NCBI GenBank assembly: GCA_029237825.1
Contig: JAQZBQ010000020.1
Location: 1 to 52,445, forward strand
Direction of reading: 5' to 3'
DNA from: Bacteroidota bacterium
GTDB lineage: Bacteria > Bacteroidota > Bacteroidia > B-17B0 > Aurantibacillaceae
Length of the DNA: 52,445 bases
A program made the position numbers and the translations under genes. The notes under the pieces were generated by a model, which worked only from the letters and a program-made list of their open reading frames with translations, searched no databases and was not told where the DNA came from. Shown piece after piece: positions 2,085-26,096 of this stretch (its first letter is position 1; each line of letters starts with the position of its first letter).

Positions 2085-3980
2085 TTATACAGCACGGAAT
2101 ACCTTAGTCCAAATGGCCAACGAATATAAACGAAGAATGAAAGCAGGTTTTTTGATTAAAAGCGAGTCGAAATGTGCGTTAAGAGTGTCCATATTTACAA
2201 AATCGAGTTGTTGAATGGTTTCAAGAACGTTACGCTTATTTGGGGCAAACCATTTACGCACCGGCGTTTCAAACCCGATTTTATCACGACGTTTATAAAT
2301 TGAGATTGGGATATACGCTTTGGTTGCCTCCCGTAACAAATACTTTGAAATGCCTTTTTGAATTTTTTTATTCCCCTCAATAGAAAAAATATAATTTAAA
2401 AGCGCTGTATCATCGGCAAAAGGAACGCGGCTCTCAATTCCAAAAGCCATGCTGCACCGATCCTCACATTTTAAGTAGGATTTAAGCCGACCAGAAAAAT
2501 CCTGTTGCAATTGCTCATTTAAAGAATTGGCCAATTTTTCATTTCTGCCTTTTTCTTGATCTCTAAACTCTTCCTTAAAATACCGAGAATAATTATAGCT
2601 TATTCCAAAAGCGTCTTTCAGCAACTGCTTACCAAATAAGATGAGCGCGCTGGGTACAGAACCATCAGCTTCTTTAATTCTTTGCAAAGTATGAAACCCA
2701 GGATGTTCCTTCCATAACGTCATGAAATGGTGCGCATATCCCGCAAATAATTCATCCGCTCCCTGTCCATCCAACACAACTTTTACGTGATTGTGGGCGG
2801 CCAGTTTCATCACCCTGTATTGGGAATATGTGCTCGTGCTCCAAACCGGTAGATCCTGTGAATAATTTAGCTGTTCAATATCACGGAAAAATTCTTCTGC
2901 CGACGGGCTCACCGTATTCCAACTTCCTCCAACCAATTTAGAAACCTGTTGCGCATAAAGTGACTCATCAAATGGTTCGCCTGGAAATACGGCTGTAAAC
3001 AATTTGATTTGCTTATGAGGTTGCAGACTTTTTACGATGCCTGCAATAATCGAACTGTCTAACCCGCCACTTAAACATGATCCTATTTCTACATCACTTC
3101 TCAAACGCAACCGAATAGCTTCAACAAGTTTATGCTCCACTTTCTGAATAATTGTAGCATCTTCCTCCTCATTATATCTCCCAATTCCCGGAAGATCATA
3201 ATATTTCGAAATCGTAAAACCATGTGTACCAAGATCGTACTTTAAATAATGAGCGGGCTTTAATTCCTTGATACCTCTGAACAAACTTTCTTCACCGTTT
3301 TCGAGATTACCATTTACTATGAAATCAAACTGTTGATTTCTATTAATCTCAAAAGGAATCAACCCGGCTTTAATAAAAGCTTTGTATTCACTGGCAAATG
3401 CAAAGTTTTCAGGCGTATCGATAAAATATAAGGGCTTTACCCCCGCTCTATCCCTCACACAATAAATCTGGTTCTTTATTCGATCAAGCAAAGTAAAAGC
3501 AAACATCCCGTTAAATTTTTGAATGCATTGAATGCCCCACTCTTTATAAGCTTCAATAATTACCTCAGTATCTGTTTGTGTATAGAATACATGAGCTTTG
3601 GCTTTCAACTCTTCCCGCAATTCAACATAATTGTATATTTCCCCATTAAATGTAATCCAATAGTTCGATGTTTGATCACACATGGGCTGATGTCCGGCTT
3701 CCGATAAATCAATAACAGACAGGCGGCGGTGGCCAAATGCGATATGATAACCATTTCCTATTTCTTCCAGCGATGTCCTGGCATTGTATGCATACGAAAT
3801 AGTGTTACGGTTTAAAATTGGTGTATCAGGTGAATAGACTGGAACAGCTTTGGAATCAGTGAAAAAGCAAAATCCTTCTCCATCCGGGCCACGGTGTTTA
3901 ATAGCCTGGTTCATGCTAAACACCGCATTCCTTATAAAATCAGAATTTCTTTTTGTTATTATTCCAGTTATCCCGCACAT
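2085..3980 (-). CDS. asnB: Asparagine synthase (glutamine-hydrolysing), AsnB/AsnO type
   Basis: At 631 aa it matches class B asparagine synthetases, which transfer amide nitrogen from glutamine to a carboxylate activated by ATP. The N-terminal class II glutaminase domain starts MCGITGI, so Cys2 becomes the nucleophile after Met removal. RLSVIDLS, NGEIYNY and RDRAGVKPLYF are also present. The synthase domain has the pyrophosphate loop SGGLDSSII, then DGQGADELFAGY and GIESRVPFAD. It is the last gene of an operon behind two polysaccharide-deacetylase-like genes, 6 nt after the second. That context suggests amidation of a sugar acid in a surface glycan rather than free asparagine synthesis, as seen for some AsnB homologues in polysaccharide loci. 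The amide acceptor is not deducible here. Confidence 0.9.
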   Translation of the reverse strand: MCGITGIITKRNSDFIRNAVFSMNQAIKHRGPDGEGFCFFTDSKAVPVYSPDTPILNRNTISYAYNARTSLEEIGNGYHIAFGHRRLSVIDLSEAGHQPMCDQTSNYWITFNGEIYNYVELREELKAKAHVFYTQTDTEVIIEAYKEWGIQCIQKFNGMFAFTLLDRIKNQIYCVRDRAGVKPLYFIDTPENFAFASEYKAFIKAGLIPFEINRNQQFDFIVNGNLENGEESLFRGIKELKPAHYLKYDLGTHGFTISKYYDLPGIGRYNEEEDATIIQKVEHKLVEAIRLRLRSDVEIGSCLSGGLDSSIIAGIVKSLQPHKQIKLFTAVFPGEPFDESLYAQQVSKLVGGSWNTVSPSAEEFFRDIEQLNYSQDLPVWSTSTYSQYRVMKLAAHNHVKVVLDGQGADELFAGYAHHFMTLWKEHPGFHTLQRIKEADGSVPSALILFGKQLLKDAFGISYNYSRYFKEEFRDQEKGRNEKLANSLNEQLQQDFSGRLKSYLKCEDRCSMAFGIESRVPFADDTALLNYIFSIEGNKKIQKGISKYLLREATKAYIPISIYKRRDKIGFETPVRKWFAPNKRNVLETIQQLDFVNMDTLNAHFDSLLIKKPAFILRLYSLAIWTKVFRAV

Positions 3981-18625: not shown

Positions 18626-19135
18626 ATGAGAACGTTCATCTTATTATGTGTGTTTCTGATTCCCACCTGGGGTTTTAGTCAAACGCCATGCTCATATATC
18701 CTCCGAACAGACTCTTGTATATTACTCAACCCAAAATTAAAGGAAGTAACCGAAGTTATTGAAGTAAAGATTAAAAATAATTACCTGGTTCAATTCATAA
18801 AACAGGGGAAACTTAACTACCTCAAAATTATTGTGCGGGATGATTTGGGGTTTGGCAAAAAAGGTTCTCTCCAATTGCTTTCCGGTAAAAAACAAATCTA
18901 CATAAAGTCGATAAAACTTGAACCCATTGATAAAACGTCTGCATATTTCATAATTGAACTAAACAACTCCTATTACCTTGATAACATTAAAGATTTAGGA
19001 TTATCAAAAATTGTTTTTAATGAAACAGTTGAATTCAACATTCCGAAACCGGATTCAGATCAAATTAAAAAAGCTGCGGATTGTTTTTACGCGATTGTTA
19101 AAGACCAGATCTGGCCTGCTTCCAGAAAATTATAG
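18626..19135 (+). CDS. Secreted protein of unknown function
   Basis: The 169-aa protein has a clear signal peptide (MRTFILLCVFLIPTWGFSQ) and a mature part that alternates hydrophobic and polar residues (VEVKIKNNYLVQFIKQ, LKIIVRDDLGF), suggesting beta strands. There are three cysteines in the mature protein, two close to the N-terminus. No family or motif is recognised. It lies between a terminator and the thiamine riboswitch, so it stands alone. Confidence 0.7.
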   Translation: MRTFILLCVFLIPTWGFSQTPCSYILRTDSCILLNPKLKEVTEVIEVKIKNNYLVQFIKQGKLNYLKIIVRDDLGFGKKGSLQLLSGKKQIYIKSIKLEPIDKTSAYFIIELNNSYYLDNIKDLGLSKIVFNETVEFNIPKPDSDQIKKAADCFYAIVKDQIWPASRKL

Positions 19136-19191
19136 ATGCGTTTTTAACGTTTAGGGCCCTGTTTCTATGAGGTTTTCTGAATAAAATTCTT

Positions 19192-19199
19192 TACATTTA
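19192..19199 (+). promoter_or_regulatory. Possible -7 element of the thiamine operon
   Basis: TACATTTA matches TAnnTTTG at all fixed positions but the last. It would place the transcript start near 19204, exactly where helix P1 of the TPP aptamer begins. No -33 TTG at usual spacing, so confidence is low. Confidence 0.35.
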
Positions 19200-19203
19200 C
19201 TCA

Positions 19204-19278
19204 ACTTTAGGGGTGTCCTTATGGACTGAGATTATACCCGTTGAACCTGATACAGTTAGCACTGACGAAGGGAAAAGT
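19204..19278 (+). promoter_or_regulatory. TPP riboswitch aptamer (THI element)
   Basis: The conserved THI-box sequence is present in order: GGGGTG (19210-19215), CTGAGA (19226-19231), then ACCCGTTGAACCTGATACAGTTAG and the closing ACGAAGGGAAAAGT. Helix P1 is ACTTT (19204-19208) with AAAGT (19274-19278). The element binds thiamine pyrophosphate and represses downstream thi genes. It precedes thiS and the complete thiamine operon. The sequence between aptamer and thiS can fold in two mutually exclusive ways (see the next entry). Confidence 0.95.
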
Positions 19279-19324
19279 GTTCGGCTCTTTTTGCCATTCC
19301 TAAAGTATAAATGAAACGGAATGG
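19279..19324 (+). promoter_or_regulatory. Riboswitch expression platform masking the thiS start codon
   Basis: CCATTCC (19294-19300) pairs perfectly with GGAATGG (19318-19324), which contains the thiS ATG at 19321; this 7-bp hairpin would block initiation. The same upstream strand, CATTCCTAAAGT (19295-19306), can instead pair over 12 bp (two G-U) with ACTTTAGGGGTG (19204-19215), the P1/P2 strand of the aptamer. Ligand binding would keep the aptamer strand busy and leave the masking hairpin free to form. This predicts translational repression by TPP. Complementarity is seen directly; the switching mechanism is inferred. Confidence 0.7.
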
Positions 19325-19524
19325 AAATTACCTTAAATGATAAATTACACAGCGTAAAGGAGAATTCATCTCTTTATGATTTAGTATGCATTCATGTTGG
19401 CGAAAAGCAAAAAGGAATCGCGGTTGCTGTTAATGATGCGGTTATCCCTAAAACGTCCTGGGAAAGTTATATCGTTCGTGCCAACGACACTATTTTAATT
19501 ATCAAGGCCACACAGGGTGGCTAA
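19321..19524 (+). CDS. thiS: Sulfur carrier protein ThiS
   Basis: ThiS carries sulfur as a C-terminal thiocarboxylate for thiazole synthesis by ThiG. At 67 aa it has the beta-grasp pattern (MEITLNDKLHSVKENSSLYDLV, then AVAVNDAVIPKTSW) and ends in the required Gly-Gly. It is the first gene of the thi operon, directly behind the TPP riboswitch, and its start codon lies in the proposed masking hairpin. ThiF, which adenylates the C-terminal glycine, is encoded by the last gene of the operon. Confidence 0.95.
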   Translation: MEITLNDKLHSVKENSSLYDLVCIHVGEKQKGIAVAVNDAVIPKTSWESYIVRANDTILIIKATQGG

Positions 19525-19537
19525 ACGTAAAAAATAA

Positions 19538-21453
<1,916 letters not shown>

Positions 21454-21454
<1 letters not shown>

Positions 21455-22050
21455 TGGTAATTGTCATTTCTAGTCCCACACCTGTTTCGAAAGAAGCGCA
21501 CCTGATCAATCACTTATTTGACGAGGGGTTATCGGTTTTCCATTTACGGAAGCCGGATAGTTCTTCCCAGGAATTGGTTTTACTATTACAGGAAATTAAT
21601 CCGCTACACTATACTAAAATTGCATTACACAGTCATCATTATCTAGCAAAAAGTTTCGGCATCAACCGTTTGCATTATACAGAAGCAAGCCGCAAACAAT
21701 TACTGGATACGGATCTTTCTGAAAATGAAAATACATTATCTACATCAGTGCATACTGTACAAGACTTTTCAGTGCTTTCTAATCATTTTAATTATGCTTT
21801 TTTAAGTCCTGTGTTTGATAGTATTTCTAAACCCGAAGCAAAATCCTCATCATTTGATTTAAGTACGCTCAATTCAAACAAAAACACAAAAATAATTGCG
21901 CTGGGTGGAATCAATATTGATAATTGTATAGATGCCTTTGAATTGGGCTTTGATGGTGTAGCACTTTTAGGGACAATTTGGAATAATGACAATGGATTAA
22001 CAAATTATAAGCTCATATCTAACCTATGCGCAAAGGAATGCACCGGCTAA
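21454..22050 (+). CDS. ThiE/TenI-like protein, probable thiazole tautomerase
   Basis: This 198-aa protein has the ThiE/TenI TIM-barrel pattern: a start VIVISSPTPV, VFHLRKPDSS at the position of the ThiE QLRxK segment, LSPVFDS at the GPxF position, and IALGGINIDNCIDAFELGFDGVALLGT at the phosphate-binding end. It lacks the Asn-Asp and complete QLR features that the ThiE encoded at 22851 keeps. Two ThiE-like genes in a thi operon are common in Bacteroidota. The divergent one may act like TenI, which aromatises the ThiG product. That assignment is inference; it may also be a second thiamine-phosphate synthase. Confidence 0.7.
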
Positions 22051-22105
22051 TTAATTAAGCACGCAGGCAGATACTGTTACTGTGAAGCCATTCGGAATTT
22101 ATAAA

Positions 22106-22861
22106 ATGAAATATACACGTCCCATAGTTTTAAGTATTGCAGGCTTTGATCCCTGTGGAGGAGCGGGCGTGTTAGCTGACACCAAAACGTTTGAGCAACA
22201 TCAGTGCCTGGGAATGGCTGTGATTTCAGGAATAACGAAGCAGGTTGAGGATAGGTTCATTTCAGTTGAATGGGTAGATCCACACAAAATTATTGACGAC
22301 ATCCGGCCTCTTTTTGAAAAATATACCATTGAGATCGTAAAAATTGGGATCATCGAAAACCTCAATACAATACAAACAGTCGTCAACTTCCTCAAGTTAC
22401 AAAATCCTAACGTAAAAATTGTTTGGGATCCTGTGCTTGCAGCTTCATCAGGATTTAAGCTAATGAACGCATTGAACCAGGACACATTAAACTCTGTTTT
22501 GCAAAAAATTTACCTCGTTACACCAAATGTAAATGAAGCAAGAACTTTAAGCGGCGATTCAAACGAAACGACCGGCGCTGAATTTTTAGCTTCATTATGC
22601 CATGTACTTTTAAAAGGCGGACACAGTCACGAAAATGAAGGGACTGATTTTCTGTTCGCTGATAAGAAAAAAATTAAAATTGAGAAGCGCACGAATCACG
22701 TTGTATATCCAAAACATGGCTCCGGTTGTATCCTATCTTCCGCGATCGCTGCAGAATTGGCCATTGGTAATGATCTGGAATCTGCCTGTAAAAATGCAAA
22801 AGAATATGTTGAAAAGATCCTGAATAGTAACCCAAATTTATTAGCATACCATGTTGCATAA
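22106..22861 (+). CDS. thiD: Hydroxymethylpyrimidine / phosphomethylpyrimidine kinase
   Basis: ThiD phosphorylates HMP and HMP-P to give HMP-PP for thiamine assembly. The 251-aa ribokinase-fold protein has IAGFDPCGGAGVLADTKTFEQH near the N-terminus, WDPVLAASSG, VTPNVNEARTLSG, LLKGGHSHENEGTD and HGSGCILSSAIAAELA, where the family usually has HGTGC. I chose the ATG at 22106 over the in-frame GTG at 22082 because the family starts close to this point. Its end overlaps thiE by 11 nt. Confidence 0.95.
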   Translation: MKYTRPIVLSIAGFDPCGGAGVLADTKTFEQHQCLGMAVISGITKQVEDRFISVEWVDPHKIIDDIRPLFEKYTIEIVKIGIIENLNTIQTVVNFLKLQNPNVKIVWDPVLAASSGFKLMNALNQDTLNSVLQKIYLVTPNVNEARTLSGDSNETTGAEFLASLCHVLLKGGHSHENEGTDFLFADKKKIKIEKRTNHVVYPKHGSGCILSSAIAAELAIGNDLESACKNAKEYVEKILNSNPNLLAYHVA

Positions 22862-23477
22862 ACTTCATTATATATCACAAGGAGACACCCCAGCCGCACA
22901 TGTGTTAAACATCAGTACAGCATTGGATTCCGGTATTAAGCTGGTTCAGTTAAGGTTGAAACATATTACTGACGAACGCTATACAGAATACGCGTTAAAA
23001 GCACAAGAACTTTGTAAACAGTATAACGCGCATCTTGTAGTTAATGACAATGCACTCGTTTCGAAGTTAAGCAACAGCAGCGTGCTGCATTTAGGCTTGG
23101 AAGATATGAGTATCACGGACGCCAAAAATATTGTTCCCTCTACACTCATTGGAGGAACGGCAAATACGTTTGATCATGTACAACAACGATGCGCAGATCA
23201 GGTAGACTATATCGGACTTGGGCCATACCGTTTTACTACAACTAAAAAAAAACTGAGTCCCGTGCTTGGCTTGGAAGGATATAATACTATCATGGGACAA
23301 ATGAAAAAGCAGGAGTTAACAACGCCTGTGTACGCAATTGGAGGGATAGAATTCGAAGATATTGCCCCCCTTATGAAAACCGGGGTTTACGGCATTGCTG
23401 TATCCGGGTTGATCACCCATTCCAAGAATAAAGAACAACTTATAAAAGAAATAAATAAAATTATATATCATGCTTAA
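22851..23477 (+). CDS. thiE: Thiamine-phosphate synthase ThiE
   Basis: ThiE joins HMP-PP and thiazole phosphate to thiamine phosphate. The 208-aa protein keeps the family motifs: [45 protein letters not shown] and [12 protein letters not shown], ending with a glycine-rich phosphate loop (GVYGIAVSG). It overlaps thiD by 11 nt and thiG by 8 nt, implying translational coupling. It is the more canonical of the two ThiE-like genes in this operon. Confidence 0.95.
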
Positions 23478-24234
23478 AATTGCATACCAATCGTTTTCTT
23501 CACGCCTGTTTTTAGGGAGCGGTAAATATGGTTCCAGCCAGGAGATGTATGATTCAATTATAGCATCCGGTACAGAAATGGTAACTGTGGCATTAAAACG
23601 CATTGACACAGATACACCGGGTGATGAATTACTGGAGGCTCTTAAGAAAGCGAACGTAAAACTATGGCCAAATACCTCAGGGGTGCGTAACGCGAAGGAA
23701 GCTGTTTTTGCTGCTCAACTGGCAAGGGAAGCTTTGGAAACAAACTGGCTGAAACTGGAAATTCATCCTGACCCGCGCTACCTGATGCCCGATCCGATCG
23801 AAACATTAAAAGCGACAGAAGAACTCGCAAAACTGGGTTTTATCGTTTTACCGTATATCCATGCTGATCCCGTTTTATGTAAACGCCTGGAAGACGCTGG
23901 TACAGCAGCAGTAATGCCGCTTGGCTCCCCTATTGGAAGCAATAAAGGTTTGAAGACCGAAGATTTTTTAGAAATTATAATCGAACAAAGCAAAGTACCG
24001 GTAATTGTTGATGCAGGAATTGGTGCTCCTTCCCACGCTGCGAAAGCAATGGAAATGGGTGCAGATGCGGTCCTGGTCAATACAGCCATTGCATCGTCAA
24101 AAGATACTTTAAAAATGGGGAATGCATTTAAAAACGCTGTTGTTGCAGGGAGAATGGCTTTCGAAGCTGGGTTATCCAAAACAAGTAAAGAAGCGAAAGC
24201 GACAAGTCCGTTAACGGGATTTCTGAATGTTTAA
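23470..24234 (+). CDS. thiG: Thiazole synthase ThiG
   Basis: ThiG builds the thiazole ring from deoxyxylulose phosphate, dehydroglycine and ThiS thiocarboxylate. The 254-aa barrel shows [12 protein letters not shown], the Schiff-base lysine in LKLEIHPDP (Lys95), [43 protein letters not shown] and the family tail SPLTGFL. It overlaps thiE by 8 nt; thiH follows 45 nt later, and its product supplies dehydroglycine. Confidence 0.97.
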
Positions 24235-24279: not shown

Positions 24280-25386
24280 ATGAACTTTAAAAACATATTC
24301 GACACATATAACTGGGATGAGCAAAAAGCATCTATCTATTCCAAATCAACGAGGGATGTGGAGGCTGCACTAAACACCCATAAAAGAACCCCCGAAGATT
24401 TTAAAGCACTTATCTCCCCTGCTGCAGTTCCCTATCTTGAAGAAATGGCTAGGGTCAGTCATGAACTCACAAAAAAAAGGTTTGGGAAAACCATTCAGAT
24501 GTACGCGCCCATGTACTTAAGCAATGAGTGTAATAACATTTGTACCTATTGCGGTTTTAGCCTGGACAATAAAGTGAAGCGTAAAACACTCACCGATACA
24601 GAAATCTTAAAGGAGGTTGAATTTATAAAACAGCAGGGCTTCAACCATATTTTGTTGGTCACCGGCGAGGCCAATCATACAGTACACCTTCCCTATTTCA
24701 AACGGGCCATTGAATTAATCCGCTCTCATTTCGCAAACATTTCAATTGAAGTACAACCTCTGGAGACAAATGAATACAAAGAATTGCATGAGGCAGGAGT
24801 TTATTCTGTTTTAGTATACCAGGAGACTTATCATAAAGAAGTTTATAAACAATACCATCCCAAAGGAAAAAAATCCAATTTTGACTACCGCCTGGAAACA
24901 CCAGATCGCATCGGCCGATCAGGGATTCATAAAATTGGATTAGGCGTATTGTTAGGCCTGGAAGACTGGCGGATAGATTCTTTTTTCTGTGCATTGCACC
25001 TCGATTATCTCCAAAAAAACTATTGGCAAACCAAATATTCCGTTTCGTTTCCACGCATGCGGCCAGCAGAAGGCATTATTGAACCCAATGTGATTGTAAC
25101 GGACAAGGAACTTGTGCAATTATTATGCGCTTATCGTTTATTCAGTGAGGACGTTGAGTTATCTGTTTCTACCCGTGAATCAGAACATTTAAGGAATAAT
25201 ATTATTCCATTGGGTGTAACTAGTATGAGTGCAGGCTCAAAAACAAACCCGGGCGGATATGCGGTTGAACCAGAATCTCTGGAACAGTTTGAAATTAGTG
25301 ATGAGCGCAGTGTCGAGGAAATCAGTCAGCTAATTAAGCGGTCGGGTTACGAACCGGTTTACAAAGATTGGGAAAAAACTTTTTAA
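24280..25386 (+). CDS. thiH: 2-iminoacetate synthase ThiH
   Basis: This radical-SAM enzyme cleaves tyrosine to p-cresol and dehydroglycine, the anaerobic route to the thiazole precursor. Its 368 aa include the Cx3Cx2C cluster motif at Cys84, Cys88 and Cys91 (ECNNICTYCGFS), LLVTGEANH, VYQETYHKEVY, and the C-terminal ThiH region ending in YEPVYKDWEKTF. The presence of thiH and no thiO in the operon fixes which precursor pathway is used. Its stop is 2 nt before the ThiF start chosen here. Confidence 0.96.
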   Translation: MNFKNIFDTYNWDEQKASIYSKSTRDVEAALNTHKRTPEDFKALISPAAVPYLEEMARVSHELTKKRFGKTIQMYAPMYLSNECNNICTYCGFSLDNKVKRKTLTDTEILKEVEFIKQQGFNHILLVTGEANHTVHLPYFKRAIELIRSHFANISIEVQPLETNEYKELHEAGVYSVLVYQETYHKEVYKQYHPKGKKSNFDYRLETPDRIGRSGIHKIGLGVLLGLEDWRIDSFFCALHLDYLQKNYWQTKYSVSFPRMRPAEGIIEPNVIVTDKELVQLLCAYRLFSEDVELSVSTRESEHLRNNIIPLGVTSMSAGSKTNPGGYAVEPESLEQFEISDERSVEEISQLIKRSGYEPVYKDWEKTF

Positions 25387-25388
25387 GG

Positions 25389-26096
25389 ATGTTGTCGAAG
25401 GAAGAATTTAAACGCTACCAAAAACAAATAATGCTCGATGACATTGGTATCAATGGGCAAATAAAAATTAAGCAAACCAGGGTGGCCGTAGTTGGTGCAG
25501 GTGGCCTTGGTTGTCCTGTTCTCCAGTATTTAACATCCGTTGGTGTTGGTACAATTGGTGTAATTGATTTTGATACAGTAGAAGAAAGTAATTTGCACCG
25601 GCAGACAATTTATTCTGCGAATGATGTGGGCCTGCCTAAGGTTGATGTTGCTGTTCAAAAATTGTCTTTTCAAAATCCTTATGTCAAACATGTTCCACAT
25701 AAAATTTTAATCAATGAGGAAACTGCGGCAATACTATCCGAATATGATATAATTATTGATGGCTGTGATAATTTCTCCACACGTTACTTAATTAACGATT
25801 GGTGTATAAAGTTGAATAAACCGCTGGTTTACGGTAGCATTTTAGCATATGAAGGGCAACTGGCTGTTTTTAATTATAACGGAAGCAGGAACCTGAGAGA
25901 TATTTTCCCGGATGAACCGAATCCACAAGATGTTCCGAGTTGTTCTGAAAATGGCGTACTAGGTACCGTGCCTGGTATCATTGGTGCGTTAATGGCGCAG
26001 CAAACCATCCAGGTGATATTGGGTAAACCTTCATTGGTAAATACATTCCTCATATACAACACTGAAAATAACCAGCAAAAAAAAATTTCATATTAG
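25389..26096 (+). CDS. thiF: ThiS adenylyltransferase ThiF (HesA/MoeB/ThiF family)
   Basis: The E1-like enzyme adenylates the C-terminus of ThiS. The product is 235 aa from the ATG at 25389, preferred over 25368 because it begins the family pattern (SKEEFKRYQKQIML) and directly follows the thiH stop. It has the nucleotide loop VVGAGGLGCPVLQYL, IDFDTVEESNLHRQ, IDGCDNFSTRYLIND and PSCSENGVLGTVPG. Cys185 lies at the position of the E. coli ThiF Cys184. The paired CxxC motifs that hold zinc in E. coli ThiF and MoeB are absent. Its stop interlocks with that of murI on the other strand. Confidence 0.9.
   Translation: MLSKEEFKRYQKQIMLDDIGINGQIKIKQTRVAVVGAGGLGCPVLQYLTSVGVGTIGVIDFDTVEESNLHRQTIYSANDVGLPKVDVAVQKLSFQNPYVKHVPHKILINEETAAILSEYDIIIDGCDNFSTRYLINDWCIKLNKPLVYGSILAYEGQLAVFNYNGSRNLRDIFPDEPNPQDVPSCSENGVLGTVPGIIGALMAQQTIQVILGKPSLVNTFLIYNTENNQQKKISY

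Follow-up and report, generated by a model that had tools for sequence, protein, structure and literature searches.

An apparent start-codon-masking TPP riboswitch upstream of thiS in Bacteroidota, with two mutually exclusive helices

The leader analyzed here is a predicted thiamin pyrophosphate (TPP) riboswitch upstream of thiS in a 52,445-nt stretch of DNA (contig JAQZBQ010000020.1 of assembly GCA_029237825.1; hereafter the window) from a Bacteroidota bacterium of the Aurantibacillaceae, and its closest described counterparts are TPP riboswitches of Escherichia coli. In the TPP-free state of E. coli thiC, a long-range anti-P1 helix excludes both the aptamer helix P1 and a further helix that hides the ribosome binding site and AUG; without ligand, the full-length RNA is biased towards this masking helix, the anti-P1 lock is established within a paused complex, and the system uses this pause together with Rho (Chauvier et al. 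2017, PMC5234074). E. coli tbpA (thiB) likewise has an anti-P1 ON state and an OFF state with a masked initiation site and acts on translation initiation, but there the Shine–Dalgarno (SD) sequence is masked and the start codon is GUG (PMC11487190). The same OFF logic, in which the ligand breaks an antisequestor and the sequestor forms, was described for sequestor/antisequestor platforms by Barrick and Breaker (2007, PMC2258182), who assigned translational action by default. Within the phylum, the thiSEGCHF, OMthi and pnuT operons of Bacteroides carry TPP riboswitches, with the same ligand class and the same kind of operon as here (Costliow and Degnan 2017, PMC5613172); the mechanism by which thi operon RNA of B. 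thetaiotaomicron falls with thiamine was termed uncertain in that report, and a transcriptome map of this species re-found three TPP riboswitches, one of them before thiS (PMC7366714). A covariation study of whole TPP switches began from terminator-type leaders (PMC13273304). Against this background, the leader described here is a regulator of an ordinary, known kind in an SD-less form, since E. coli thiC already has the same logic.

The aptamer, the sole over-threshold Rfam match in the window, scored 67.9 bits, above the gathering threshold of 54.3 (RF00059, model positions 1–105), and the thiS start (ATG at 19321–19323) lies 30 nt downstream of its end. thiS is the first gene of an operon in the order thiS-thiC-thiE-thiD-thiE-thiG-thiH-thiF, which places the aptamer upstream of thiamin biosynthesis genes, as expected of the TPP family (upstream of thiamin biosynthesis or transport genes). 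On these two features, aptamer match and thi-gene context, we classify the leader element as a TPP riboswitch from its sequence. Coordinates of all features are given in Table 1.

Analysis of the aptamer and the spacer behind it revealed two helices that compete for the same bases. Helix B joins ACTTTAGGGGTG to CATTCCTAAAGT by 12 contiguous pairs, including two G-U pairs. Because P1 and P2 occupy 19204–19212 in the Rfam pair list, and helix B takes up the entire 5' strands of both, it is incompatible with the TPP-binding fold of the aptamer. Helix A pairs CCATTCC with GGAATGG through seven perfect pairs spanning the thiS AUG. The arms of the two helices have six bases in common (19295–19300), so that they cannot coexist. 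The leader thus holds an anti-P1 helix that excludes P1 and, in competition with this helix, a mask across the initiation site, the two hallmarks of an E. coli thiC-type switch; unlike E. coli thiC, it contains no SD-like sequence, a single 12-nt strand bears both pairings, and the mask covers the AUG and the beginning of the second codon. Comparison of the best ungapped helices with those from 300 dinucleotide shuffles of the spacer gave p=0.003 for helix A and no shuffle as good as helix B. Chance complementarity was ruled out by these shuffles together with the register slides, partner swaps, tree-aware null and recurrence in other leaders presented below. The first-pass annotation, made from the letters alone, had proposed a TPP riboswitch before thiS, the 12-bp pairing with the aptamer 5' strand, the start-codon pairing and their mutual exclusion; all four were recovered, and its interpretation of the leader is supported.

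The terminator scan detected no intrinsic terminator on the plus strand of 19100–19420, and no T-run follows helix A, in agreement with the earlier observation that had pointed to translation rather than termination; a transcription-terminating TPP riboswitch was accordingly rejected. G at −8 belongs to the E. coli-type pause consensus and occurs in just 20 of the 120 thiS leaders described below, so no pause signal is claimed. An SD-like sequence at −20 to −5 was found in 1/120 of these leaders. With the anti-P1 helix and the mask present and no SD sequence to be masked, the arrangement would work like thiC without being an SD-masking switch. Bacteroidetes mRNAs are described as lacking SD sequences, and initiation there as tuned by mRNA structure (PMC6847099).

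We consider it highly probable that the leader is a TPP OFF switch on thiS translation, with TPP-bound P1 releasing the strand for masking of the start codon. The helices are present, exclude each other and recur in relatives with compensatory changes; on that basis we infer the following course. Without TPP, the nascent leader would pair the aptamer 5' strand with CATTCCTAAAGT; helix B would thereby break P1/P2 and hold CCATTCC off the start codon, leaving an open AUG (ON) on which the ribosomes of this phylum, not being reliant on SD sequences, could start. With TPP, the aptamer would keep P1/P2 closed, and the freed CCATTCC would pair with GGAATGG across the AUG (OFF). The rest of the thi operon is probably controlled too, through coupling or mRNA decay. 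Folding predictions were consistent with the individual states. In ligand-free RNA ending at 19310–19320, helix B had a probability of 0.89, and when helix B was enforced the AUG was 0.97 unpaired just after its transcription. When the aptamer was enforced, helix A reached 0.93–0.99 and the AUG was unpaired at only 0.01–0.07, matching the first-pass prediction that a ligand-bound aptamer leaves the masking hairpin free to form.

To place the leader among its relatives, thiS leaders were collected from several sources. RF00059 matched 19 of 20 genomes of the genus (over the cut-off in 6/20) and 76 of 87 of the family (over the cut-off in 31); 34 of these loci were oriented and examined, 25 of which precede thiS, and 14 others (L008–L020, L022) lay outside the thiS search. 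A scan of named genomes by ThiS alignment contributed the best 80 of 318 relatives, which biases the set towards loci with a closely related ThiS; in 74 of the 80 an aptamer exceeded the gathering score, L052, L059, L064, L069 and L076 were added by eye, and L093, with no aptamer seen, was excluded. These 104 leaders yielded 95 distinct ones (first set); two of the named loci, L049 and L050, both Bacteroidetes, share their leader sequence exactly with L021 and L005, respectively, from the window's genus. A class-wide sample matched RF00059 in 147 of 158 genomes, over the cut-off in 95, and only over-cut-off hits were taken; 98 loci were read, 28 of which precede thiS with an ATG start, whereas L177, L193 and L206, which look like additional thiS loci, stayed outside the counts. 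The extended set comprised 123 leaders, or 120 after removal of three duplicates, with the start codons of L077 and L167 shifted by hand to an in-frame ATG. A phylum-wide PF02597 search was left unused, as in our judgement it mixes ThiS with other members of the family.

Both helices recurred in many of these leaders. Note that the register was placed by helix B at the arm and by the ATG at the start, so that counts for helix B are favoured, while the spacer-shuffle control is unaffected. In the first set, tested against dinucleotide shuffles, the best helix with the start region reached p≤0.05 in 45/95 leaders and helix B in 78/95; the best start-region helix covered at least 2 ATG bases in 69, the two helices had at least 4 bases in common in 62, and 41 leaders combined p≤0.05 for both helices with an overlap of at least 3 bases and coverage of at least 2 ATG bases. 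Helix A played no part in fixing register 0, at which 77% of its cells paired in the 95 leaders, compared with 25–48% when slid by one to four bases. In the extended set of distinct Bacteroidota leaders, helix A spanned the AUG with at least 6 contiguous pairs in 64/120, against 0–3/120 in slid registers, and helix B with at least 8 contiguous pairs in 102/120 (register fitted to helix B). Both helices with at least 4 shared bases occurred in 63/120, comprising 57/93 leaders from the near searches and 6/27 from the class sample. By sequence, the double-helix arrangement thus appears common to many related bacteria.

Variants were also seen. In seven Chitinophaga leaders (L089, L103, L109, L112, L115, L120, L125), helix B is retained (ACATCCTTAAAGT), and CTTCCA or TTTCCA just 5' of the helix B strand could form a helix with TGGAAG, a stretch that begins at the second base of the ATG and runs into codon 3. 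Leaders L095, L105, L110, L118, L127 and L128 (Mucilaginibacter, Arcticibacter, Pedobacter) carry an anti-P1 strand with a recurring central mismatch of 1–2 bases, and in several of them the match extends upstream of the aptamer core, e.g., CCTATTGTTG opposite CAACTTTAGG. Leaders L182, L192 and L198, which we take to be Bacteroides-like by their ThiS sequence, differ from the window in that they keep an anti-P1 strand of another sequence and lack the CATTCC/GGAATG mask.

Analysis of the pairs in the 64 helix-A leaders revealed some compensatory changes in helix A, ThiS codon 2 included. The pair involving the first base of codon 2 was C-G in 37, U-A in 10 (TCATTCC/GGAATGA), U-G in 7 and G-C in 1. 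Two bases 5' of the AUG, the pair was C-G in 57 and U-A in 6 (CATTTC/GAAATG), and immediately 5' of it U-A in 58, U-G in 4 and C-G in 1. A U-A pair at arm position 5 (9/95) had been considered as further evidence for helix A and was dropped, because it occurs in only 1 of the 64 leaders with contiguous helix A. Own partners paired better than swapped ones for both helices (z −9.2 for helix A and −10.4 for helix B, with 0/20000 permutations each), in a permutation that ignores relatedness. Under a tree-aware null, a rough one in which columns evolved independently on the ThiS protein tree from Fitch states, helix A had 461/840 paired cells versus 331 ± 35 and helix B 920/1320 versus 654 ± 44 (register fitted), and in neither case did any of 1000 simulations reach the observed value. 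In 25 sequences hand-picked as motif-bearing, the window included, RNAalifold recovered helix A unprompted; 87.1% of its cells paired compared with 30.7–51.2% in slid registers, and 10 cells changed on both sides, with 0/500 shuffles as high. The anti-P1 strand was also compared with altered P1 sequences: in 23 leaders with non-canonical P1, it ranked in the top 5% of swapped partners in 8, some of them close relatives, with a mean rank of 0.27 versus 0.5 expected. It tracked the altered P1 in, e.g., L161, L180, L182 and L198, and poorly in L088, L122, L181 and L233. Strict double changes on the same branch numbered 39 for helix B versus at most 13 in slid registers, the register being fitted to helix B. 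The compensatory changes expected in related leaders were therefore found for both helices, except that strict same-branch double changes for helix A stayed at background (6 versus 0–11 in slid registers), so that this measure gives helix A no support.

This last result is one of several that weigh against the proposed switch or its reach. Many compensatory cells derive from a few clades, and helix A in this form was present in only 6/27 class-wide leaders. In the folding predictions, enforcing helix B left the AUG only 0.42–0.48 unpaired in RNA extended to 19335–19370 and 0.05 in RNA extended to 19400; the ligand-free equilibrium favoured helix A after the AUG had been transcribed (0.84 at 19325), and the minimum free energy structure of 19195–19345 (151 nt) included helix A, with ordinary stability (z −0.79). 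Since the ligand-free equilibrium favours helix A, a switch must rely on folding order, a pause or ribosome capture; the choice may be made during transcription, or a ribosome may capture the open AUG first. The same equilibrium would suit a start hairpin that acts as a constitutive brake and wins with or without TPP. We regard such a brake as extremely unlikely: it leaves the conservation of helix B (102/120 leaders; p≤0.05 in 78/95) without a reason and does not account for the tendency of helix B to follow P1 of different sequence (8/23 non-canonical leaders in the top 5%), and E. coli thiC shows the same full-length equilibrium bias by SHAPE (selective 2'-hydroxyl acylation analyzed by primer extension), yet switches during transcription (PMC5234074). 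It is also conceivable that CATTCCTAAAGT is kept solely for helix B and that it matches the start region as a by-product, since the near-invariant aptamer strand would by itself conserve its complement and helix B is commoner than helix A (102 vs 64 of 120 leaders). However, two U residues opposite two G residues, which make helix B weaker, are kept at the very positions at which helix A requires U to face the AA of GGAATG, and the bases around them are kept in 57–58 of the 64 helix-A leaders; moreover, the base facing ThiS codon 2, a base not involved in helix B, tracks the coding base in the proportions given above, and own pairs outperform swapped pairs. A by-product is thus very unlikely.

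A doubtful but possible alternative is a mainly transcript-level switch, in which the TPP-bound, masked RNA would be terminated by Rho or degraded and translation would be merely the trigger. E. coli thiC does both, with a pause at the AUG and Rho termination in the presence of TPP (PMC5234074), and the drop of thi operon RNA with thiamine in B. thetaiotaomicron, which also counts against a translational switch, could be transcription control (PMC5613172). On the other side, the plus strand of 19100–19420 lacks an intrinsic terminator, the conservation extends across the AUG itself, and an RNA-seq survey that included Bacteroides data sets reported six transcriptionally active TPP switches out of 57, with no Bacteroides named among them (PMC12121620). 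With respect to the translational OFF switch, we lean towards a broader form, in which many SD-independent Bacteroidota have a TPP platform with one strand complementary both to P1/P2 and to the start codon plus codon 2 of ThiS, the AUG itself being masked. In that reading, the double complementarity of a single strand would make leader and protein-coding sequence evolve together. A description of this platform was not found among literature titles and abstract openings, a search whose coverage excluded most subscription papers and bioRxiv; a 2019 preprint on Bacteroides TPP riboswitches, seen by title, may overlap.

Other TPP-like elements were found in the relatives and in the window's genome. 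In the window's genus, five TPP aptamers on the plus strand that score under the Rfam cut-off (L008, L015, L019, L020, L022) lie upstream of a long open reading frame (ORF), which we take to resemble a TonB-dependent receptor, and they have a different platform in common, with a small hairpin around CATCCCCTTG located 5' of the ATG. Two TPP leaders (L045, L046) are located upstream of a membrane-protein gene that is presumably PnuC-like; L046 carries CATTCCCC 5' of the ATG as well as GGAAT within its coding sequence, which may represent a similar mask displaced downstream, and L045 has GGAAT in the coding sequence and no CATTCC. A different arrangement, with a TPP-like aptamer directly 5' of a GNRA-loop hairpin and a T-run, was seen in L257 at 3282–3408 (G000:C13:59781–59907, minus strand) and in L024, L023 and L007 (G008:C58:172676–173308). 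This element is present as one copy and a 60-base remnant in the window's genome and as three tandem copies, 84–98% identical to the window-genome copy, in one congener; searches of the remaining 18 genomes of the genus gave no match. No thiamin gene was recognized by eye among ORFs of at least 90 amino acids in the 6 kb around these aptamers, a survey made without a family search. The thi operon of the window itself includes two thiamin monophosphate (TMP) synthase genes (thiE/tenI-like, PF02581), the first copy having a much weaker Pfam score than the second (48.6 vs 140.7 bits).

Table 1 Features of the predicted TPP riboswitch leader and thi operon in the window
Feature	Position	Strand	Basis
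TPP riboswitch aptamer (THI element)	19199..19290	+	RF00059, 67.9 bits
P1 5' strand, partner 19274–19278	19204..19208	+	Rfam consensus structure mapped onto window
Helix B (anti-P1) 5' arm: aptamer P1, P2, first P3 bases	19204..19215	+	sequence, shuffles, pair list
P1 3' strand, AAAGT, second copy at 19302–19306	19274..19278	+	sequence and Rfam pair list
Helix A (start-codon mask) 5' arm, CCATTCC	19294..19300	+	sequence, shuffles, relatives
Helix B (anti-P1) 3' arm, CATTCCTAAAGT	19295..19306	+	sequence, shuffles; at least 8 contiguous pairs in 102/120 leaders
Helix A 3' arm, GGAATGG: thiS ATG and codon 2 first base	19318..19324	+	sequence, shuffles, relatives
thiS	19321..19524	+	PF02597, E=1.2e-9
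thiC	19607..21454	+	PF01964 and PF13667
thiE-like TMP synthase, first copy	21454..22050	+	PF02581
thiD	22082..22861	+	PF08543
thiE-like TMP synthase, second copy	22851..23477	+	PF02581
thiG	23470..24234	+	PF05690
thiH	24280..25386	+	BATS and Radical_SAM domains; name inferred from domains and place
thiF	25368..26096	+	PF00899

For the control of thiamin synthesis by TPP in Bacteroidota, the proposed switch offers a mechanism that is concrete and testable, and these leaders would provide a natural test of whether masking of the AUG alone, without an SD sequence, suffices to stop translation in this phylum.
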